Shown one piece after another: positions 3,114-22,908 of a stretch of DNA of 64,000 nt; the first letter of the stretch is position 1, and each line of letters starts with the position of its first letter. Source of the stretch: an uncultured Bacteroidota bacterium (lineage in GTDB: Bacteria; Bacteroidota; Bacteroidia; Flavobacteriales; Flavobacteriaceae). The notes beneath the pieces were generated by a model. It worked only from the letters and a program-made list of their open reading frames with translations, was not told the DNA's origin and searched no databases. The position numbers and the translations under genes are program-made. The stretch covers positions 1 through 64,000 of the forward strand of contig CACEKG010000001.1 of NCBI GenBank assembly GCA_902560065.1. Reading direction: 5' to 3'.

Positions 3114-5327
3114 TTAATTTAAAGCAAAAGCTAGATAAGAGTCTCCAGATTTAGTACCCATCTTACCTCCTCCACATGCAATAACAACATATTGTTTTCC
3201 ATCTATTTGATATGTAATTGGTGTGGCATATCCGCCGGCTGGTAATTTGGCTTTCCATATTTCTTCTCCAGTTTTTTTGTCAAAAGCTCTGAAATATTCA
3301 TCATTAGTAGCTCCTATAAATATTAATCCTCCGTCTGTTAATATAGGACCTCCGTAATTTTCTGTACCTGTTTTAGAAAAGCCTTGTTTAGTTAATTCTT
3401 CATATTCTCCCAAAGGTACTTGCCAAACAATTTCACCTTTATTTAGATCTATAGCATTTAAAGTTCCCCAAGGCGGTTTAACAGCTGGATAACCATTTTC
3501 ATCCATAAATCTTCCAAAATAATTTATAGAATATGGTACGATATTAGGATCAAGTTCTCTAAAAGAATTCAGGTCCAAATCAATGTTATCATCATCTAAT
3601 AAAAATGCTGTCATAGCTTTAACTTGACTTTCTGAAACTTGTGGCATTGGCATCATACTTCCTTTTCCATTTTTTATTATTAATGACAATTCATTTTTTT
3701 TAAATTTATTCTTTAGGTTTTTTAAACCAGGAATATTGGAAATTCCATCTAAATCCGCTCCATGACATCTTGAACATTGTTGAGAATAAATTGATTTACC
3801 GTAACTTTTTACTGGATCTTTTTTTAACTGCCATTCCCATTCCTTAGGTGTATCATACTTATTTGCAATTGAAACCCAAGGCATTTCATTTGAATTCACA
3901 TACAACCATCCAGAGTTAGGATCAAATGCTGCTCCTCCCCATTCTGCTCCACCATCTAAACCAGGAAAAGTAATTGATCTTTTTTCCTCGCTATGTGGAT
4001 GAAATTGCCCTTGTGAATTTAAAGTTTCAAACACTTCTTTAATTGTTTTATCTGAAACCTTTTCCTTTTGATTTGGAGTCCATGCAAGTAGAGCTTTTGA
4101 GTTTGGAAACATATCGTTAATCATATCTTTAGTAAATTCCTGTCTTGCAAAAGGAGGGATTTTTGTTGGTAGTGGTTGAGTAGGCCAAGATTCTTCATCC
4201 TCTAGTTCAGATTTTGGAAATGGAAATTCTTTTACTGGAAAAATATGGTTTCCAGTTTTTCTATCAAAGACAAAAACATGACCCGATTTAGTTACCTGTG
4301 CAACAGCCTTAATTAATTTTCCCTCTATATTTATATTAACTAAATTTGGAGGTGCTGGCAAATCTCTATCCCAAAGATCATGATGAACAAATTGAAAATG
4401 CCATAAACGATTCCCGTTATTTGCATCTAATGCAATTAAAGAATTTGCAAATAAATTTTCGCCCTTTCTATTCCCCCCCCAAAAATCATAAGATGCAGAG
4501 CCAGTTGGAATATATACTATACCTGTTTCTTCATCTAGTGTCATTCCTGCCCATGAGTTTGCTCCTCCAACATACTTGTAAGCATCTTTAGGCCAGGTTT
4601 CATATCCATATTCACCTGGTTGAGGAATTGTGTTGAATCTCCAAACTAAGTCACCTGTATCTAAATCATAAGCTCGAATATGTCCAGGTGAAGCTCCAGG
4701 CCCTTCATGCACTCTAGTTCCCTGAATTAATATATTTTTATAAACAACCCCTGGAGTATTAGCAACAACAGATAAGGTTTCAAATGGTCTACCTAGGTTT
4801 TTTCTTAAATCAATTTTGCCTTTATCTCCGAAAGTATTTTCAATTTTACCAGTTAAAGCATCAACTGAATATATATAGCTTCCTGAGGTATAAATTATTC
4901 TTCCATCAGCTTTGTCATCCCAATAAATTATACCTCTATTAACACCCCACCATCCAGGACCTACATCTTGACCATGATCAAATTTCCAAATTTCTTTACC
5001 TGTCTTAGCATTAATAGCAAATAATTTTGTGACAGGATTCGTTCCATATAAAATAGAGTCTATTACAATTGGACTACACTGAATTTGAGTTGTATTTTTT
5101 CCATTAAGATCACCAGACTTGTATTCCCAAACTTTCTTTAAGGTTTTTACATTAGATTTATTTATTTGATTTAATGATGAATAATGAGTTCTTGCCTTAT
5201 CTCCCAAATATTCATTCCATTGCTTAAAGTTTTGATTTAAAAAATTTAATTCTTTTCTATCAAGGTCTTTAGAACAAGAAAATAAAAGAATAAATACTAA
5301 AGATAAGTTTATTTGTTTCATTAACAT
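3114..5327 (-). CDS. PQQ-dependent quinoprotein dehydrogenase (glucose dehydrogenase-like) with a cytochrome c domain
   Basis: PQQ beta-propeller motifs (KTGKEIWKF, DLVWRFNTIPQPGE, GEEIWKAKLPAGGYATPITY), heme c site CSRCH, lipoprotein-like N-terminus LLFSCS. Confidence 0.88.
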   Translation of the reverse strand: MLMKQINLSLVFILLFSCSKDLDRKELNFLNQNFKQWNEYLGDKARTHYSSLNQINKSNVKTLKKVWEYKSGDLNGKNTTQIQCSPIVIDSILYGTNPVTKLFAINAKTGKEIWKFDHGQDVGPGWWGVNRGIIYWDDKADGRIIYTSGSYIYSVDALTGKIENTFGDKGKIDLRKNLGRPFETLSVVANTPGVVYKNILIQGTRVHEGPGASPGHIRAYDLDTGDLVWRFNTIPQPGEYGYETWPKDAYKYVGGANSWAGMTLDEETGIVYIPTGSASYDFWGGNRKGENLFANSLIALDANNGNRLWHFQFVHHDLWDRDLPAPPNLVNINIEGKLIKAVAQVTKSGHVFVFDRKTGNHIFPVKEFPFPKSELEDEESWPTQPLPTKIPPFARQEFTKDMINDMFPNSKALLAWTPNQKEKVSDKTIKEVFETLNSQGQFHPHSEEKRSITFPGLDGGAEWGGAAFDPNSGWLYVNSNEMPWVSIANKYDTPKEWEWQLKKDPVKSYGKSIYSQQCSRCHGADLDGISNIPGLKNLKNKFKKNELSLIIKNGKGSMMPMPQVSESQVKAMTAFLLDDDNIDLDLNSFRELDPNIVPYSINYFGRFMDENGYPAVKPPWGTLNAIDLNKGEIVWQVPLGEYEELTKQGFSKTGTENYGGPILTDGGLIFIGATNDEYFRAFDKKTGEEIWKAKLPAGGYATPITYQIDGKQYVVIACGGGKMGTKSGDSYLAFALN

Positions 5328-5452
5328 TTTTAAGATTTTTAAATTTAGGAAAAAATTATTTTTTATAATTGAAACAAAAAGATGTAATTAAAAAAATTTT
5401 ATTTTTAATCTATATTTGAAAGTTTTATAACACTAAACCATAAACCAAAAAA

Positions 5453-5965
5453 ATGAAAAAATTATTATTATTAATATTTTCTTTACTATTAACAACATCG
5501 ATATATGCTCAATCAATAACAGTAAATGAAAATAAATTGACTAAAAAGGAGCAAAGGGAACTTAAAAATCAACTTAAAAAAGAACGTAGAGAACAAAAAA
5601 AGCAAGAAAAGTTCAAGCGAATGGGGCTTAATGAATATGGCATTGATATAAATGCTAAAGACTGGGTTCAAGCACTTAGATACCACTTAGGTGGAAAAGT
5701 AACTCAAAATGTAAATGGTATACCAATTCTAGTTCCTGTATCTACACTTGGCGCTGGTGCCAGTTCAGTTGGAGGTTCTTTCAAAAGTGTAAACGTTAAA
5801 CAACCTTTATGGGTTATTGATGGTGTACCTGTAGGAAATGCTCCTGGTGGAGTTCAATCTCTATCAAGAATGATTAAAGATGTTAAAGTATTAAAACATT
5901 CTGATGCAACTAAATATGGTACAAGGGGTGCTTTTGGAGTTATTGAAATAATAACTACTCCATGA
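5453..5965 (+). CDS. Secreted protein with TonB-dependent receptor plug-like domain
   Basis: Signal peptide; PLWVIDGVPVG...SRMIKDVKVLKHSDATKYGTRGAFGVIEIIT resembles the SusC plug domain; no beta-barrel. Confidence 0.7.
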   Translation: MKKLLLLIFSLLLTTSIYAQSITVNENKLTKKEQRELKNQLKKERREQKKQEKFKRMGLNEYGIDINAKDWVQALRYHLGGKVTQNVNGIPILVPVSTLGAGASSVGGSFKSVNVKQPLWVIDGVPVGNAPGGVQSLSRMIKDVKVLKHSDATKYGTRGAFGVIEIITTP

Positions 5966-9519: not shown

Positions 9520-12395
9520 CCTGACATAAGGTCCTCTCCAGGTTTTTTTACAATGTAATAATAGCTTCCCACTGATAATAGTTGTCCTTTTTTATTTAAT
9601 CCACTCCACTGATTATTATAATTTTCACTTGTAAAAACAATATTTCCATTTTTATCAAAAACTGTAACCATGGTTCCTGGATAACTATTAATTCCAGTAA
9701 TTATCCATTTAGACTCAATACTATTTGATTTTGGTGTGAGTAATTTCGAAACTATAAAATCATCTGAATTGGTTATTAAATCAATTGAGCTATCAATCAA
9801 ATCATCACATATTCCCCATGAAGGTTTATTCTGTGAAGTAAGTGGAGAATTAGTTGAAAAATCTGATGGTTCAGTTAATATGCCCGTAACACACCAGGAT
9901 GATAGGTCCTGATTAAAAGAAGAAGCATTTTGAAACATTGAATCCATTTTTGTTACACTAGAAATATCCCAATTACTTATATCTATATTAAAAACACTAG
10001 CTCCGTTAAACATTGAAAACATAGTTGTAACATTTGAAGTATCCCAACTTCCTATGTCCTGATTAAAAGCATTAGCCATTTCAAACATCCAAGCCATATT
10101 TATAACTTTTGAAGTATTCCAACTTCCTATATCTTGATTAAATGAAGTAGCCTTTTGAAACATACTTCTCATACCAAATACCTGAGAAGTATCCCATTGT
10201 CCAATATCCTTATTAAATATAGAAGCCCCAGTAAACATATACTCCATGCTCGTAACATTAGAAGTGTTCCAATATCCTATGTCTTGATTAAATGAATTAG
10301 CTCCATAAAACATATATTGCATATCTTCAACTTTTGAAGTGTTCCAATTTCCTATGTCTTGATTAAACAAAGAAACTTCTCCTGGAAGAGTGCCAAATAA
10401 CCCTTTCATATCAAAAACACTTGAGGTATCCCAATTCCCAATATCTTGATTAAAAGACCAAGCATCGGAAAACATAAAACTCATATCTGTTACTTTTGAA
10501 ATATCCCAATTTCCTATGTTCTGGTTAAATGAAGTGGCTGAATTAAACATTGAATCCATATTAATAACAGTTGATGTATTCCAATTTCCTATATCTTGAT
10601 TAAAAGCCTGAGCATTTTGAAACATTGCATTCATATCATTGACATTAGAGGTGTCCCAACTTCCTATATCTTGATTAAAATCAAGGTATTCTTTAAACAT
10701 TTCTGACATATTAATTACCTTGGAAGTACAAACACAAGTGACATCCTCTCTATTGTCTACCATATTCTGAAGAATTGTTTGGTCAACAACAATGTATTCT
10801 TTACCATTAACTAAACCTTTGTCTCCTATATTTGCCCCTTCACACTTAATAGTAACCCCATTACTATCTAAAAATATATTAGAAGATCCAGGGCAAGTTG
10901 CCCATTTAGGTTTGTTATCAGAAATTAAAGGAGAGTTAACTGAAAAATCTGGTGGTTCAGTTAATATATTTTTAACACACCAATTGGAGATGTCTTGATT
11001 AAAAACAATTGCATCTTTAAACATACTTGACATATTATTTACATTTGATGTATTCCAGTTTCCTATATCTTGATTAAAAGCTGAAGCTCCAGAAAACATT
11101 TCAGCCATGTCTTCAACATTAAAAGTATTCCAGTCTCCAATATCTTGATTAAAAGAAGTTGCTCCATCAAACATTTGTCTCATCTTATTTAAATTTGAAA
11201 TATTCCAATTTCCTATGTCCTGATTAAAACTAATTGCATCCCAAAAAATTCCCCACATATCTAAAACATTAGAAATATCCCAACCACCTATATATTGATT
11301 AAAATTAGATGCTCCATAAAACATAAAGCTCATATTTATAACAGATGATGTATTCCAACCTCCTATATCTTGATTAAATGAAGAAGCTCCTGAAAACATT
11401 TGTGACATATTAGACACATTTGAAGAATTCCAACTTCCTATATCTTGATTAAAGGCTGAAGCTCCCTTAAACATAGTTTGCATTTCCATTACCTTAGAAG
11501 TATCCCATCCTCCAATATCTTGATTAAATGAAGAAGCCTGAGTAAACATACCCTTCATATTAACAACTTTTGTAGTATCCCAATTTCCTATATCTTGATT
11601 AAATTTATCAGCCCCCCAAAACACAGATTCCATATTAGTAACTTTAGAAGTATTCCAACTTCCTATATCTTGATTAAATGAAGACTCACCAAACATGCCA
11701 CTAATCACAGTTACATTAGAAATATTCCAACTTGAAATATCTTGATTAAATGCAGAAGCACCCCGAAACATATCCATCATTTCAGTTACATTAGAAGTAT
11801 CCCAATTACTTATATCTTTATTAAAAACATTAGCTCTATTAAACATTCCATTCATGTCAATGACATTTGAAGTGTCCCAACTTCCTATATCTTGATTAAA
11901 TAAAATAGCTCCAGCAAACATATCTCTCATATTAGTTACATTAACAGTATTCCAACCTCCAATATCTTGATTGAATATTTGATTATTATAAAACATTTCA
12001 CTCATATCCTCAACATTAGAAGTGTCCCAACTTCCTATATCTTGGTTAAATAATTGCGCATTTTTTAATATAGATTTCATTGTTGTAACACTTGAAGTAT
12101 CCCAACTTATTATATCCTGATTAAATGAAGGCTTAGACATAAATAACTCACTCATATCTGTAATATTTGAAGTACAAACACAAGTGACATCTTCATCATT
12201 ATTAACCATATTTCGAAGAAGTGCTTCGTCGACAACAGTATAAATTTTTCCTGCAATATTCTTGGTAAATCCTGTTTCTGAATCCTTGCACTTAATAGTA
12301 ACTCCATTACTATCTAGTACTATTTCATTTGTAAAGGATTGAGAATATAAATTATATGAAAACAAAAAAACAAATAGAAGTAGCTTAATTTTCAT
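9498..12395 (-). CDS. BspA-like DUF285 repeat surface protein with gliding-motility/T9SS type-B-like C-terminal domain
   Basis: Signal peptide, ~27 repeats of FNQDIGxWDTSNVxxMxxMF, C-terminal [43 protein letters not shown]. Confidence 0.9.
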
Positions 12396-15092: not shown

Positions 15093-15109
15093 GTGGGGAG
15101 AGCAGGATT
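15093..15109. repeat. Left copy of 17-bp direct repeat GTGGGGAGAGCAGGATT (putative att site, partial tRNA-Tyr 3' end)
   Basis: Identical to 21428-21444, which covers the 3' end (acceptor/T-arm) of tRNA-Tyr. Confidence 0.9.
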
Positions 15110-15233: not shown

Positions 15234-15253
15234 CTGACAGTAAAAGTGACAGT
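15234..15253 (+). repeat. Left end-proximal motif pair CTGACAGT / GTGACAGT
   Basis: CTGACAGT at 15234-15241 and GTGACAGT at 15246-15253; counterpart pair at 21363-21382. Confidence 0.75.
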
Positions 15254-15305
15254 ATGGGGTTTTTTTAAACGGAAAAATTTAGAAAGGAGTTAAATGAATT
15301 TTAAT

Positions 15306-15560
15306 CTATAAAAATTTTTCTGCAATCTTTCTTAACCTCATATATAAGGATTCATCGAGTAAATAATCTAAATCGTTACATGATTTAATTGAATCAATAA
15401 GTTTAATGTGATTTTTAATATAATTAGAATAGTGGGTATTAAAAACACTTTCTGGATCAGCTTGGTTTTTATATATTAATCTATTTAACTCAGATTGAAT
15501 ATCTGACAAAAGTATCTCCTTTTCAACATGACTAAAGTTATCAAATATATTTTTTTTCAT
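15306..15560 (-). CDS. Small hypothetical protein (84 aa), last gene of island operon
   Basis: ORF co-directional with upstream island genes; no recognised domain. Confidence 0.6.
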   Translation of the reverse strand: MKKNIFDNFSHVEKEILLSDIQSELNRLIYKNQADPESVFNTHYSNYIKNHIKLIDSIKSCNDLDYLLDESLYMRLRKIAEKFL

Positions 15561-15633
15561 ATTTTGAATTAAATATTAGAAATATCTATTTTTGAAGTAA
15601 CTTTTCCAATTCCTTTTTGAAAATCAAAAAATT

Positions 15634-16413
15634 CTATAACCTCGGAGTCGTTATTCTTTCCAATTTATATTGAAAATCATAATGTGAGTTCAATTCATTT
15701 CTAATTTCTTCCTTCGACAAACCTGTAAAAAAGTGATTTTTGTAGTGGTTTAACATAATTGGAGACATTAGTTTTGAAAATTCGGTGTTAATGTCTGGCT
15801 TAATTTTTAATAGATCAAATAATAAATCAATATAAGCTTGAAAAAACATTTTATTTTTTAAAAAATCAAACCTTTCCATAAGATCAAATGTTAGCTGGCT
15901 ACTTGAATATATTTTTTCAGTGTATTCATATGGGTTTTTTAAATTCGGATCGTATGTTTTTTTTGCAGTCCAATACAATCCTGAAATGTAATTCCTCGTA
16001 AAAGAAAGATGTGTAGCAGTTCCATCAATAAAAAATCTTTTTAAATATGTTAATAATTTTTTATCTCTTGAAGATGAATTAAACTTATTTATGCAGTAAT
16101 CTCTATAAAAATACAAAGACAAATAACACCATAGCCTTTCATCATGTGCTTCCTCGTAAGTCAATTGTTTTAATTCTTCGAATAAAGTTTTTGAAGCTTC
16201 AAAATCATCTGTAACAGTATTTAACTTTTTTGTAATCTCAATATTACCTTTCTCAATTTTACTATTATCAAAGAAAATCTTATCTAGTTCGCCTTTTTTT
16301 AAATGAATTAAAAAATCACTCAAATTACCCTCTCTATCATACTCTCTTAATTTATCTTTAATATCTTTTATGGTTTGATAATCTTTAATCTTAGAAATAT
16401 AATTTTTTTCCAT
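15634..16413 (-). CDS. DUF6339-like hypothetical protein
   Basis: Pattern EAHDERLWCYLSLYFYRDYC...LSFTRNYISGLYWTAKKTYDP..NPYEYTEKIYSSSQ recalls DUF6339; identified by memory only. Confidence 0.65.
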   Translation of the reverse strand: MEKNYISKIKDYQTIKDIKDKLREYDREGNLSDFLIHLKKGELDKIFFDNSKIEKGNIEITKKLNTVTDDFEASKTLFEELKQLTYEEAHDERLWCYLSLYFYRDYCINKFNSSSRDKKLLTYLKRFFIDGTATHLSFTRNYISGLYWTAKKTYDPNLKNPYEYTEKIYSSSQLTFDLMERFDFLKNKMFFQAYIDLLFDLLKIKPDINTEFSKLMSPIMLNHYKNHFFTGLSKEEIRNELNSHYDFQYKLERITTPRL

Positions 16414-16432
16414 GTAATTAATTTAATTTTCG

Positions 16433-17284
16433 TTATTTCATTATTTTTATTAAACTATCTAGGCAATTAATCTTAATATCACCAGCGCCAAAAGTTTGAT
16501 TGTAGATTTTTGTTGCATAATTATATTTATTATCCTCTTCAAAAGACTCAGAAAAATCGACACCCCTATCATTTAAATGCTCTTTTAAATCTCTATACCA
16601 TTTTCTTGAAATGTGATCGGAGGATCCTTCATCCTTCATTAGTTCTAAAATTCCTAATATGATTGCTTGTGATGTTATTACATCACCCAAAAGAATATTT
16701 ATGTTATTATCGTTCATTCTTTGAACAAAGAAATCAAAGAATTTCTTCTCTAGTGAAATCACTATTTGATCACCGCTATGTAAATCAATATCGAAATTCA
16801 TGTCAGGATTTTCTACTCTTTTAAGAGAAACAAATTCCAGTTCATTTCCTTTAATAAAATTGTCCTCTAGATTTACAATTAAAGAAAACTCCTCGCTAAT
16901 TTTTTGATTATTCTTGTAGTAGATGTTTTCATTAAACCAAAAGGGTGAGAGTAAAACTTTATTTAATCTAAAATTATCTGAAGAAATAGCGTAAGAATTT
17001 ATCTCTATCCTATCACTAAATTCATTTTTTTCTATAGCTAATGGATTAAAATTTTCAGTTATGTAGCAAAGAAAAGTAGGTTTACATATTATCTCAGTTA
17101 TTAATTTTATTTTATTTTTTGAAATTAAATTTTGTATCTCAGGGTCAATAATACTATTAGACTTATCTAATCCAAAAATGAAATACTTATCATCATTTTT
17201 ATTTATTCTACAATAAGGGTTTAATTTAAACTCATCCTTAAAGTCTTGTCTTTCGTTTACTATTCCAAGTTTAGGTATACTCAT
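16433..17284 (-). CDS. Uncharacterised 283-aa island protein
   Basis: Intact ORF between ATPase and DUF6339-like genes; no motif recognised. Confidence 0.7.
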   Translation of the reverse strand: MSIPKLGIVNERQDFKDEFKLNPYCRINKNDDKYFIFGLDKSNSIIDPEIQNLISKNKIKLITEIICKPTFLCYITENFNPLAIEKNEFSDRIEINSYAISSDNFRLNKVLLSPFWFNENIYYKNNQKISEEFSLIVNLEDNFIKGNELEFVSLKRVENPDMNFDIDLHSGDQIVISLEKKFFDFFVQRMNDNNINILLGDVITSQAIILGILELMKDEGSSDHISRKWYRDLKEHLNDRGVDFSESFEEDNKYNYATKIYNQTFGAGDIKINCLDSLIKIMK

Positions 17285-17290
17285 GATAAA

Positions 17291-19465
17291 TTAATTTTGA
17301 ATTGATATTTCAAAACTTGAAAAAGTAGAATTTAACTCCTCTATTTCAAGATTTAAATCTATGTTTGATTTATTTGATTTGTGAGTTTGATCAATTCTCA
17401 AATCATAAGCAAAAACAATCATCGGTTGCAACCTATCTTTCTTTATTGGTAATATTGTAACTATTCTATGTCCATTTAGAAAAGCTTTTTTGATTTTGAA
17501 TGAGGAAGCTTTTGTAGCTCCTAATGATTGTTGTTTTATTCGTAATGTATTAATATTACTTAAGTCCAATTCATCAAAATTTATAGTATAGTTTGAAATT
17601 TCTTTTTCTTTTTTTATCAATTTTGAACGGAAATATTTTGGATGAACAAGTCCAGTTCTTGCTATTGCAGGCTGATCAGGTTTCTTCTTATTAACCTTTC
17701 TTTTTTCAACAGGAGGATCTGGATTTGGAGGACCTGGTGGGTCGTAAATTATTTTTATTGGTTTTCTTCTAACATATTCAACATAATCCCCTTTAGGATC
17801 AAGCTTATGTGTGGTTTTGTCACCATTTTTATCTAATAAAAGAATTTCACCTTCTGTGAGAAGTGAAATCGAATTTGGGCTAATCCTTTTAAAATCATTT
17901 TCTTTAAGCTTATAATTTCTTGTGTAGGAAGGTGATTCAGTTTCATTACTTTGACCAAGATTATTTTGCCCTTGAAAAATCCATGTAGTTTTTTTACTTA
18001 GATTACTTTCTCCAAAACAGTTTTCATTTACTATTTTATGTACCCAATCTTTTATTTTATTAATAAAAGAAGCTAGCTCTCTACCTTTAGGAAGTCCCAA
18101 AGGAAGATTTTCCCCATGCCCATGAATAGTAGTAATAAATTCATCATGACTTGGTGGTTCAAATTGTGATAAAATTCCATTTAAAATCTTATTATCGCTA
18201 TAAACATATCCATAAAATTTAGAATTATTTGTATACATTAAATTTTTCATTAGCATATTTTGTTTTCTTAAAAGCATTCCATCACGGACAAAACTGAAAT
18301 AATCTTTTTTTATTCCGTCTTTAGTTTCACCAGCCTGAAAAAGTTTTAACTTAATATTATATTTTCTTTTCTCATCATCTACTTTGAGAGCGAATTCTTC
18401 TTCATAAATTTCAGGGTTATCATTTTTAACAAAGTGCTCTATCTTATGAAATTCATCTTGGACTTTATCCTTATTTTCATTTTTTGAATAGAAATTTGAT
18501 TTTTTAATTTTATTAATTGTATCTACTATTTCTTGATGATTAGAAATTTTATAGAAAAGAGGTTTAGATTGAGTTCTGTCTTCAATTTGAATATCAACCC
18601 TTTCATCTTCAATAATTGTGAAAAAAGAAGAAATTATACTATAGGCACATTCATTCATCCAATCAATATTCCTTTGATTTGTTGTAATAATTGTAGATAA
18701 ACCGTCAGCATTTATAAATCTTAAATCTTTTATGCTTTTATTATTTTCATCTAACTCAATCCAGTCACATTGATCTTCTGAGTCTATTAACTTTCCCCAA
18801 TAGAATTGTTTTCCTTTATATTTTTTTAATTTTTCTTCTCCCTCAACTTTAAACGAATAGGAGTTAATTTCTGAAGATCCAACAAAATATTTTTTATCTC
18901 CCCTTTGATTTATATAGAATACAGTCCTAATTGGAGAGTGCAAAATTGAAGTGTACTTTCCCTTTCCATAAGTTCCCAATTTAGAATTACTGTTGTTCCC
19001 TTTTACACTCATATCTTGTTGAAGTAAGGCTTTTGAGCCATGTTTCTCATCAGTATACATTGTTGTTCCTTCTAGACCACCTGAGTTATCTTCAATATTT
19101 AAATAATACATTTGGTCATCAATTATTTTTAGAAAAGTGTCATTAATTTCTTTACAGTGTTTGTCTTTATCATCATTATCTCTTTTAATTAGCATTGAAT
19201 AGTAATCGTTGCTTTGTTTTAGATAATTAGCATAGTCATTAAATGGTAACAAATCCTTATTAAACTTATTTAGGGTAATTTTGAATTTGAACTTATCAAT
19301 ATTACCTATTTTGTTATTACCAATAAATGCATCCCATGAATTTTGTAATAATTCTCTAACACAATCTATTAAACTATTAGTTGTATCAGAAGGTGTAAAA
19401 ATAAGACTCCTAGTGTCTATAAATGATTTATCTCTTTGAATATAAGGTCTAATTTTTATCTTCAT
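17291..19465 (-). CDS. GHKL (Hsp90/MutL/MORC-like) ATPase of a DNA-modification-associated system
   Basis: N-box CVRELLQNSWDAF, G1-like IEDNSGGLEGTTMY, G2-like KLGTYGKGKYTSI. Confidence 0.8.
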   Translation of the reverse strand: MKIKIRPYIQRDKSFIDTRSLIFTPSDTTNSLIDCVRELLQNSWDAFIGNNKIGNIDKFKFKITLNKFNKDLLPFNDYANYLKQSNDYYSMLIKRDNDDKDKHCKEINDTFLKIIDDQMYYLNIEDNSGGLEGTTMYTDEKHGSKALLQQDMSVKGNNSNSKLGTYGKGKYTSILHSPIRTVFYINQRGDKKYFVGSSEINSYSFKVEGEEKLKKYKGKQFYWGKLIDSEDQCDWIELDENNKSIKDLRFINADGLSTIITTNQRNIDWMNECAYSIISSFFTIIEDERVDIQIEDRTQSKPLFYKISNHQEIVDTINKIKKSNFYSKNENKDKVQDEFHKIEHFVKNDNPEIYEEEFALKVDDEKRKYNIKLKLFQAGETKDGIKKDYFSFVRDGMLLRKQNMLMKNLMYTNNSKFYGYVYSDNKILNGILSQFEPPSHDEFITTIHGHGENLPLGLPKGRELASFINKIKDWVHKIVNENCFGESNLSKKTTWIFQGQNNLGQSNETESPSYTRNYKLKENDFKRISPNSISLLTEGEILLLDKNGDKTTHKLDPKGDYVEYVRRKPIKIIYDPPGPPNPDPPVEKRKVNKKKPDQPAIARTGLVHPKYFRSKLIKKEKEISNYTINFDELDLSNINTLRIKQQSLGATKASSFKIKKAFLNGHRIVTILPIKKDRLQPMIVFAYDLRIDQTHKSNKSNIDLNLEIEELNSTFSSFEISIQN

Positions 19466-19692
19466 TATAGTTTAAATTTTGTTTTTTCTTTATTTTCAAT
19501 TTTGAATTTTGATTTACATAAATTCACTTCATCATTTATTGCTTTAAATATTTTATCGACATCCTGTTTTGTATATTCGTAGTTATATTTATTAGAACAA
19601 TTTGATAATAACGAGATGGATTTAAGTATTGATTCAACGCGCTTTGGAACAATTTTTTTAAAACGTTCTTGTTTTTCAATTTTTTTAGTCAT
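19465..19692 (-). CDS. Small conserved protein (75 aa), first gene of island operon
   Basis: RFKKIVPKRVESILKSISLLSNCSNKYNYEYTKQDVDKIFKAINDEV resembles small proteins commonly seen beside R-M/mobile loci; overlaps the ATPase start. Confidence 0.7.
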   Translation of the reverse strand: MTKKIEKQERFKKIVPKRVESILKSISLLSNCSNKYNYEYTKQDVDKIFKAINDEVNLCKSKFKIENKEKTKFKL

Positions 19693-19764
19693 GACTATAA
19701 GTTTAAATATTGGAGCCCTGTAAAGACTTTAATAAAAATTAAGTTCAAATAATATGTATAAAAC

Positions 19765-19846
19765 TACACACATAAAAAATGTATTTAACAAATATATAAT
19801 ATATTTATGAAAAAGCAAATTATATTAAATATATTTACTGTGTGTA
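19765..19846. promoter_or_regulatory. Divergent promoter region with separated inverted repeat TACACACA...TGTGTGTA
   Basis: TACACACA 19765-19772 and TGTGTGTA 19839-19846 between the divergent ATPase operon and methyltransferase. Confidence 0.4.
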
Positions 19847-19871
19847 ATATAGATAATATTTTAAATTTTAA

Positions 19872-21284
19872 ATGAAATTTATAGATTTATTTGCTGGTGC
19901 AGGCGGGATGTCATGTGGAATTAAAAATGCAGGTGGTGTTCTTGTATTTGCAAATGAGTTTGATCCAAATGCATCAAAAACTTACAAGTCAAATTTAGAT
20001 CATTGGAAAAACTCTCAAGGTCTTCTCATACAGGCCCCAATTGAAAACCTTCATAAGTCTTTAATTAAAAAAGATATTCAAAATAATTTTCAAGGTGATT
20101 TGGTTGTTGAGCATTCTACATACAAAGAAAATAAAGCCAAACATGAAAATGTTCAAATAGATAAAGACCATTTAAAATATTTGAAATCAATTAAAAAAAT
20201 TGATCTAATTGTTGGTGGTCCGCCATGTCAAGGATTTTCTAATTTAGGAAGAGGAAAAAAGAAAGAGATATTACAAAATGTCCAGAAAAAATTTATTGAG
20301 GACCCAAGAAATCAGTTATTTAAATATTTTTTAGATTTTGTAGAATTTTACTCTCCAAAGATTGTGTTGATTGAAAATGTAATGGGACTAAAATCAGCTG
20401 GTGATTATTATGAATTAATACATAAATCTCTTGAAAAGACAAAACCAGGTTATATTGTAACGGGTCTTGAACTTAACGCATCTGAATTTGGTATAGCTCA
20501 ATCAAGAAAAAGATTATTTTTTGTAGGTGTTAGAAATGATATAAAGAATGCTGGGCAATTTATTTTTAATCTTCCAACAGTTTTAAACTTCTGTAAATCT
20601 AAATCTTTTTCAGTAAGAGATGCTATTGATGATTTACCCAATATTAGATCTAATCCTCAATCACTTAATCTTAGGGTGGAAAATGAAATTCCTATTGGAA
20701 ACGTTGATTCTTTTGGAGAGCAAGAAAGTACATTAGATTATGTAGACCTTTTATCTGAGAATACTATATATGCTAATATGATAAATAAGATTGGTGAAAA
20801 TGGAGAGGACAAAAAACCAACGAAACTTTATAACCATAAAGCTAGATTTAATAATGCTTCTGATCTAGAAATATATAAACAGATTTCTGCTGGCAAATAC
20901 TTAACTAATATTGAAAATGAAGAAGTCCTTCAAAAGGTTAAATATGGTACTGGTATAGATGAAAATGGAAGAAGGTATGTTAATCAGGGTTTTGCAGACA
21001 AATATTTTAAGCTTGATCCTAATAAGCCATCCAGAACAATCGTAGCTCATCTCCAAACAGATAATAATGGTTTTATTCATTATGGAGAGACTCCTAGAGG
21101 AATTACTCCAAGGGAGGCTGCAAGGCTTCAATCTTTTCCCGACTGGTATAAGTTTGAAGGTCCTTTTACGAATCAATTCAAACAAATTGGAAATGCTGTG
21201 CCACCGTTATTAGCGAAAATATTTGGAAAAATTTTTAAATCATTTTTAACCGATCACTCAATTGAAAATCTATATGATTTATAA
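19872..21284 (+). CDS. C5-cytosine DNA methyltransferase (Dcm family)
   Basis: Motif I DLFAGAGGMSCGIKNAG, IV GGPPCQGFSNLGRG, VI ENVMGLKS, VIII QSRKRLFFVGVR, IX GITPREAARLQSFPD, X QIGNAVPPLLAK. Confidence 0.95.
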   Translation: MKFIDLFAGAGGMSCGIKNAGGVLVFANEFDPNASKTYKSNLDHWKNSQGLLIQAPIENLHKSLIKKDIQNNFQGDLVVEHSTYKENKAKHENVQIDKDHLKYLKSIKKIDLIVGGPPCQGFSNLGRGKKKEILQNVQKKFIEDPRNQLFKYFLDFVEFYSPKIVLIENVMGLKSAGDYYELIHKSLEKTKPGYIVTGLELNASEFGIAQSRKRLFFVGVRNDIKNAGQFIFNLPTVLNFCKSKSFSVRDAIDDLPNIRSNPQSLNLRVENEIPIGNVDSFGEQESTLDYVDLLSENTIYANMINKIGENGEDKKPTKLYNHKARFNNASDLEIYKQISAGKYLTNIENEEVLQKVKYGTGIDENGRRYVNQGFADKYFKLDPNKPSRTIVAHLQTDNNGFIHYGETPRGITPREAARLQSFPDWYKFEGPFTNQFKQIGNAVPPLLAKIFGKIFKSFLTDHSIENLYDL

Positions 21285-21362: not shown

Positions 21363-21382
21363 GTGACAGTATAACTGACAGT
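21363..21382 (+). repeat. Right end-proximal motif pair GTGACAGT / CTGACAGT
   Basis: GTGACAGT 21363-21370 and CTGACAGT 21375-21382, same 12-bp spacing as the left pair. Confidence 0.75.
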
Positions 21383-21393
21383 AAAAAAACAAA

Positions 21394-21412
21394 CCCCTAA
21401 TATTTATAGGGG
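21394..21412. other. Stem-loop CCCCTA-N7-TAGGGG near the island right end
   Basis: Six-bp perfect inverted repeat, possibly a terminator or an end structure. Confidence 0.4.
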
Positions 21413-21427
21413 CTTACAGTTGTATTT

Positions 21428-21444
21428 GTGGGGAGAGCAGGATT
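21428..21444. repeat. Right copy of 17-bp direct repeat, overlapping the 3' end of intact tRNA-Tyr
   Basis: GTGGGGAGAGCAGGATT identical to 15093-15109. Confidence 0.9.
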
Positions 21445-21510
21445 CGAACCTGCGAAGGTAAAACCAACAGATTTACAGTCTGTCCTCGTTGGCCGCTTGA
21501 GTATCTCCCC
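21429..21510 (-). tRNA. tRNA-Tyr (anticodon GTA)
   Basis: Class II tRNA with long variable arm; acceptor GGGGAGA/TCTCCCC; anticodon loop CTGTAAA. Confidence 0.95.
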
Positions 21511-21999: not shown

Positions 22000-22908
22000 T
22001 TAATTTTTTTCTCTCGGATGTGATTTAAAATAAATATCTTTTATTTTACTCATACTAGTATGTGTATATAATTGAGTAGCTGCTATACTTGAATGACCCA
22101 ATAAATCTTTAATTGAATTTAAGTCAGCTCCTTTATCAAGTAGATGAGTTGCGAAGCTATGACGAAGCATATGAGGACTTTTTTTTGTTTTTGATGATAC
22201 TATACTAAAGTAACGGTTTACAGTTTTGTAAACAAAAGATTCTGTTAACATTTTACCTTTTTTATTTACAAAAAATGTTGATGAATTATTTTTAATTATT
22301 ATTTCATTTTTCTTCTTAAGATAAGTTTTAATTATTTGAATCAATTCATCTAAAATTGGAATTAATCTTTCTTTGTTTCTTTTTCCATGAACTTTAATAA
22401 CTCCTTCATTTATCAACACATTCCTTTCTTTCAAATTAATCAACTCAATTCTTCTTATTCCAGTAAAATAAAATACTGCAATTATAGTTTTTTCAAGAAT
22501 CCCCATATAATCATCAGAGAAATGATCCCCTTTAAATAATGATTTAATTTCGTCTTCAGAAAAAGGCACATTTATATTTTTAGGTGTTTTTAAAACTTTA
22601 TGGTTTTGTAAAGGCGAGGATTTTATAGTTCCTGTTTTTAATAAAAACTTATAATATGATCTTAAAACTGAAACTTTTCTATTAACTGTTCTATTAGAAT
22701 TTCCATTCTCAATTAAACTTATTATCCATGATCTAATTTCATTATATGATACTTTGTCTATTGAGTCAATATTAAAATTAGTTTTTACAAAATCGTTAAA
22801 ACTCAATAAATTTGAATTATATGCAATTTTAGTATGATGGGAAGATTTTTTTTCCAGGTATATATAGTCTAAAAATTTAGAAATAGACATATTTAAGTTT
22901 GTAATCAA
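22000..22908 (-). CDS. xerC: Tyrosine recombinase XerC-like (chromosomal)
   Basis: Catalytic pattern TGIRRIEL, HGKRNKERLIP, HMLRHSFATHLL, LGHSSIAATQLYTH. Confidence 0.85.
   Translation of the reverse strand: MITNLNMSISKFLDYIYLEKKSSHHTKIAYNSNLLSFNDFVKTNFNIDSIDKVSYNEIRSWIISLIENGNSNRTVNRKVSVLRSYYKFLLKTGTIKSSPLQNHKVLKTPKNINVPFSEDEIKSLFKGDHFSDDYMGILEKTIIAVFYFTGIRRIELINLKERNVLINEGVIKVHGKRNKERLIPILDELIQIIKTYLKKKNEIIIKNNSSTFFVNKKGKMLTESFVYKTVNRYFSIVSSKTKKSPHMLRHSFATHLLDKGADLNSIKDLLGHSSIAATQLYTHTSMSKIKDIYFKSHPREKN

Follow-up and report, generated by a model that had tools for sequence, protein, structure and literature searches.

MORC-like ATPases and bacterial restriction

GHKL ATPases of the MORC type have been linked to bacterial restriction through their genome context since 2008 (PMC2292703). 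That report describes the paraMORC2 ATPases and their association with restriction-modification, gives an ExxxH signature as their mark, and records them mainly from cyanobacteria and Gram-positive bacteria (Iyer, Abhiman, and Aravind, PMC2292703). It places them in restriction-modification neighborhoods with a C5 methylase and Vsr, and it stresses SF2 helicases. In the PADLOC collection, a set of three genes, A-B-C, is listed as the candidate PDC-M33; two papers refer to PDC systems as unvalidated (PMC12988326, PMC11811056). A GHKL ATPase domain is also present in the antiphage protein VcSduA, a Shedu protein that carries its own PD-(D/E)XK nuclease domain (PMC12137116). In eukaryotes, MORC2 is an ATP-driven DNA clamp that compacts DNA with ATP hydrolysis (PMC12216690). 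A literature search recovered no experiments on any member of the module considered here and no functional test of the paraMORC2 type.

The locus described below lies in a 64,000-nt stretch of DNA (the window) from an uncultured marine member of the Flavobacteriaceae. An earlier note, made from the sequence alone, regarded it as a poorly described defense or modification system. That description needs correction, because the set is already cataloged as an unvalidated candidate and the ATPase type was tied to restriction-modification in 2008 (PMC2292703). The idea in the same note of a unit tied to restriction-modification and centered on a MutL/MORC-type GHKL ATPase is supported, and its genes are inherited together. 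The gene set is real, mobile, and well conserved; what is new is a fourth component, a nuclease-less island form, and a remote second subtype.

Organization of the cassette

All six ORFs first proposed for the cassette were confirmed with their strands and coordinates, and they place a C5 methyltransferase gene divergent from a tight minus-strand operon (Table 1). Genes S and A overlap by 1 base (position 19465), and gaps of 6, 19, and 73 bp separate A from B, B from C, and C from the 84-aa ORF. The methylase looks active, given its Pfam match and the motifs FAGAGG (position 7), PPCQG (117), ENVMG (168), QSRKRLF (210), and GNAVPP (440). The initial impression that no helicase or nuclease was visible holds, since none could be recognized in the cassette by Pfam and PADLOC profile searches of the island ORFs; likewise, the DUF6339-like assignment of the 259-aa protein was confirmed. 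The 84-aa ORF has a homolog in none of the collected loci and may stand outside the system.

Table 1. Features of the tRNA-Tyr island and its cassette, in window coordinates
Feature	Position	Strand	Evidence or remark
Left copy of 17-bp direct repeat, GTGGGGAGAGCAGGATT, att-like and duplicating the 3' end of tRNA-Tyr	15093..15109	.	Identical to 21428-21444; single copy in sister genome
Paired TGACAGTA-N4-TGACAGTA, candidate integrase arm sites, left	15235..15254	+	Pattern search of genome
84-aa ORF	15306..15560	-	No relatives; membership doubtful
Subunit C, 259 aa, DUF6339 / PDC-M33C	15634..16413	-	Pfam 3e-28; PADLOC 3.6e-26; all-helical model
Subunit B, 283 aa, PDC-M33B	16433..17284	-	PADLOC 3.6e-11; leave-out profile 2.2e-10; model
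Subunit A, 724-aa GHKL ATPase by motifs, paraMORC2 / PDC-M33A type, divergent	17291..19465	-	Leave-out profile 1.3e-28; hhalign 98.6%; motifs
Subunit S, 75 aa, module-conserved, no Pfam or PADLOC family	19465..19692	-	Leave-out profile 1.8e-24
Intergenic region, 179 bp, between divergent transcription units	19693..19871	.	ORF coordinates
C5-cytosine DNA methyltransferase, catalytic motifs intact	19872..21284	+	Pfam C-5 DNA methylase 5e-59; motifs
Paired TGACAGTA-N4-TGACAGTA, candidate integrase arm sites, right	21364..21383	+	Pattern search of genome
Terminator-like hairpin by right island end	21389..21417	-	Consensus match only; 3 found vs 1.9 expected
Right 17-bp direct repeat, tRNA-Tyr 3' end (tRNA 21428-21510, minus strand)	21428..21444	.	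Exact repeat

Comparison with PADLOC gave a divided result. Subunits B and C match the PDC-M33B and PDC-M33C profiles and occur in the same gene order, but A is missed by the PDC-M33A profile, which matches the ATPases of relatives down to 1e-209. The homology of A was instead established by a profile of relatives and by hhalign, which gave 98.6% for A against 30 other ATPases over residues 34-480. Profiles built without the window (72 relatives each for A, B, and C; 33 for S) retrieved A, B, and S at the values listed in Table 1 and C at 1.4e-25, whereas the best scores in a control with 200 shuffles per protein ranged from 0.05 to 3.6. By this measure of sequence similarity, the recovery of S, A, B, and C exceeds chance. 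In contrast to PDC-M33 as cataloged, the module includes a conserved S, and the window copy is not accompanied by a restriction nuclease.

As in the paraMORC2 neighborhoods, a C5 methylase is present, here divergent within the same island. The SF2 helicases stressed in PMC2292703 are absent, and the definition of an A-B-C core with S comes from the present sequence analysis. Type II restriction-modification systems likewise use a C5 methylase as the marking enzyme, but a cognate nuclease was found in none of the island ORFs. Unlike VcSduA, A has no recognizable PD-(D/E)XK nuclease, and a Pfam search of A found no DUF4263 domain of this type. Kinship with eukaryotic MORC2 is only distant within the GHKL group, and there is no chromatin here. 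We know of no MORC counterpart for B, C, or S. DISARM and Druantia match only through shared methylase profiles, and their helicases and other subunits are absent.

A divergent ATPase and its partners

Subunit A carries the N-terminal GHKL motifs RELLQNSWDA (residues 37-46), EDNSGG (125-130), and GTYGKGK (164-170), as well as the ExxxH signature of paraMORC2 ATPases (436-440), a type for which an S5 fold in the C-terminal domain is also expected. Its residues R400, M404, E436, and H440 are invariant in the aligned ATPases, and the GHKL, R/M, and ExxxH residues taken together show little or no variation. Matches of Pfam HATPase domains to the ATPase family are marginal (best 0.002), an hhalign comparison with a HATPase_c_3 protein failed, and solved structures gave no match by sequence, which leaves the identification of A as a GHKL ATPase resting on these motifs. 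An alignment of 11 ATPase sequences was too diverse for pattern search.

Window A forms the longest branch of the ATPase tree, with an end branch of 4.5 changes per column. Because of this divergence, tblastn searches with A yielded no relatives: there were zero matches in plasmids, phages, and IMG/VR, and the sole match in 292 genomes of the order was to the source genome itself. Relatives were reached through B and C rather than through A. Given how divergent A is and that the PADLOC profile misses it, the function of this ATPase may have changed.

Structural models could be obtained for both partners, as the earlier note had suggested, but neither revealed a nuclease-like fold. The B model combines beta-sandwich domains with a helical C-terminus (pLDDT 79.5) and weakly resembles tandem fibronectin-III domains in a fold search (best E about 0.01). 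The C model is entirely helical (pLDDT 77) and matches nothing in the PDB or among viral models. Profiles and fold searches of the models disclosed no nuclease motif in B or C, and the conserved residues of the two proteins are mainly aromatic residues, glycine, and proline, with no catalytic set. Both proteins are thus probably adaptors, to judge from these models and residues. The view that one of the 283-, 259-, and 84-aa proteins had to be the effector was not borne out, as B and C lack conserved catalytic residues and a match to any nuclease-like fold and the 84-aa ORF is unique among the collected loci. The small protein S, which is missing from PADLOC, is a recurring fourth component on profile evidence.

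The module in relatives

We examined 73 loci with A, B, and C, including the window. The order S-A-B-C is conserved in relatives from Bacteroidota, Bacillota, Actinomycetota, Deinococcota, Pseudomonadota, Fidelibacterota, and one haloarchaeon, and S is located upstream of A in about half of the 73 loci. The predicted co-occurrence with C5 methyltransferases was found. Among the 45 loci flanked by at least 4 kb in each direction, which are not independent and derive from searches seeded mainly with Bacteroidota, a C5 methylase is present within 6 kb in 32 and absent within that distance in 13, a ratio to be read as indicative. The genome-wide density of such genes in 99 Bacteroidota predicts fewer than about 0.005 per locus by chance.

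Many relatives also have a nuclease gene nearby. These neighbors include HpaII-type and BsaWI-type nucleases (L016), a FokI-type nuclease (L019), a Sau3AI/MutH nuclease (L023), AlwI (L022 and L024), annotated type II enzymes (L025 and L029), and HNH_2 (L030 and L104). Because these nucleases are of unrelated kinds, the module appears to serve restriction generally, and as far as gene neighborhoods reveal, the nuclease in relatives is a separate, interchangeable gene. In some rumen loci the module is located 3' of an AAA gene that is McrB-like by eye only. The L030 record (MT837792, an unverified stool phage record) is a 6.2-kb contig deposited as phage that holds the module, an HNH nuclease, and a C5 methylase. 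At L064, a second GHKL protein (HATPase_c_3 plus Hypoth_Ymh; 4282-5919) is encoded between Vsr and the methylase, adjoining the module.

Three layouts of the set occur: the methylase may be divergent, may lie between S and A, or may come last. Small neighboring genes having been profiled in part, no nuclease is visible at L076, where the set follows a fumarase gene, at L084, where it follows a pseudouridine synthase gene and precedes a toxin-antitoxin-like pair and ThiC, or at L018. At L076 and L084 the set is hemmed in by housekeeping genes. Judged by these profiles, sets with no visible nuclease recur in several lineages, which is a new observation. Two nuclease-less copies are bordered by toxin-antitoxin-like genes, which look Fic/Doc-like and PIN-like by eye (L084:11580-12292; L086:5696-6124 and 11749-12165). 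Three loci form a sub-clade with a C-terminal extension of ~200 aa on the DUF6339 protein and with no methylase found nearby (L017 8917-10332, L079 7673-9055, L081 3466-4764). In the first of these, the module has a reverse transcriptase gene (RVT_1, 1e-17; L017:4923-5792) immediately upstream, next to a helix-turn-helix gene.

Downstream of more distant ATPases (L089-L108) lie genes for two different proteins, B2 (~260 aa) and C2 (~245 aa), as at L089:9728-11205. Neither belongs to a known Pfam or PADLOC family, and these loci often include S, a C5 methylase, and Vsr. Profile comparison links B with B2 (E 3e-5) and C with C2 (E 9e-5), whereas the swapped controls gave 0.29 and 0.16. These loci represent a second subtype, A-B2-C2, that is new here and whose partners are remote homologs of B and C at the level of profiles. 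On the strength of these links, the A-B-C core probably predates PDC-M33 and extends beyond it.

A mobile island in tRNA-Tyr

The cassette sits on a mobile 6,335-bp island at the 3' end of tRNA-Tyr, a point overlooked in the first reading. In a sister genome from this genus, the 17-bp repeat is present once and the island is absent, and there is an intact junction in which tRNA-Gly is directly followed by tRNA-Tyr. When the window flanks are joined at the repeat, 116 of 120 bases match the sister genome, and this defines the length of the insertion. The flanking direct repeats and the empty site in a relative are both as expected for a tRNA-integrated genomic island, but an integrase of its own is not present. 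No recombinase or integrase was found among the island ORFs, the nearest being outside the island at 22000-22908, and thus mobilization would have to come in trans. The 1.3-Mb genome contains exactly two instances of the motif TGACAGTA-N4-TGACAGTA, one by each island end, and these pairs may be integrase arm sites. A scan of viral contigs for the right end of the island found none.

Weighing the explanations

The most likely role for the module is that of a methylation-gated MutL/MORC-like DNA clamp that assists restriction. For the window itself, we give roughly even chances to the fuller reading that it holds a divergent, nuclease-less paraMORC2 (PDC-M33) copy that is paired with a C5 methyltransferase of its own, travels on a small mobile island, and acts as such a clamp. 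The cassette might instead be a decayed type II restriction-modification island that has lost its restriction enzyme, leaving a solitary methylase and module as a remnant kept by addiction or drift. The fast evolution of window A and the restriction nuclease that adjoins the methylase in many typed relatives would suit this scenario. We nevertheless regard it as rather unlikely, because all window genes are intact and open with their GHKL, ExxxH, and methylase motifs conserved, no nuclease debris is recognizable in the island, and sets lacking a visible nuclease are also found, in different gene orders, in other lineages.

MutL-type ATPases can have an intrinsic endonuclease, and the module itself might cut unmethylated DNA through a cryptic metal site, such as the invariant ExxxH of A or one located in B or C. 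The profiles of B and C, however, have no conserved acidic or basic catalytic set, B weakly resembles tandem beta-sandwiches, C matches no solved fold, and a dedicated nuclease has been added in many relatives, all of which makes this proposal very unlikely. MutL also works with Vsr and MutH in known repair, and 12 of the 45 well-flanked loci have a Vsr repair nuclease within 6 kb. The module could therefore be a MutL-like clamp on 5-methylcytosine deamination mismatches or hemimethylated DNA, shielding the host from the methylase that it carries instead of attacking invaders. Such a maintenance role seems quite improbable, since the window and most loci lack Vsr, and some copies have no nearby methylase (L017). 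Moreover, the module also accompanies adenine-methylase systems (AlwI/Dam in Lactococcus and an N6 system in Ligilactobacillus), for which the repair of cytosine deamination is irrelevant.

A proposed methylation-gated clamp

A methylation-gated clamp could operate as follows. Subunit A would dimerize on ATP to form a MutL/MORC-like clamp on DNA, with B and C as noncatalytic adaptors or sensors. The methylase would mark host DNA, where the clamp would be released or never licensed, whereas on unmarked invading DNA the clamp would persist. We infer this methylation gate from the linkage between the module and methylases. In the arrangement usual among relatives, the persisting clamp would load a nuclease; nuclease-less copies might block or compact DNA with the clamp, or recruit a nuclease encoded elsewhere in the host. 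For the window copy, the effector may be clamp silencing or a nuclease acting in trans, or function may have been lost. Because the genome is 66% complete, a nuclease in trans may be encoded in the missing part. MORC2 offers a precedent for ATP-driven DNA compaction, as an analogy and not as proof. A bolder proposal, which we consider unlikely, is that S, A, B, C, and the C5 methylase constitute complete nuclease-free restriction, in which a methylation-gated MORC-like clamp would silence or compact unmarked DNA and the genes would spread as an integrase-less island mobilized in trans.

The island copy is unusually small and self-contained: its 6.3 kb hold a methylase, an ATPase with two partners, and a single small protein. 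This compactness would allow nuclease-independent action of the module on unmethylated DNA to be probed directly. Nuclease-free action of this kind would bear on the origin of eukaryotic MORC silencing.
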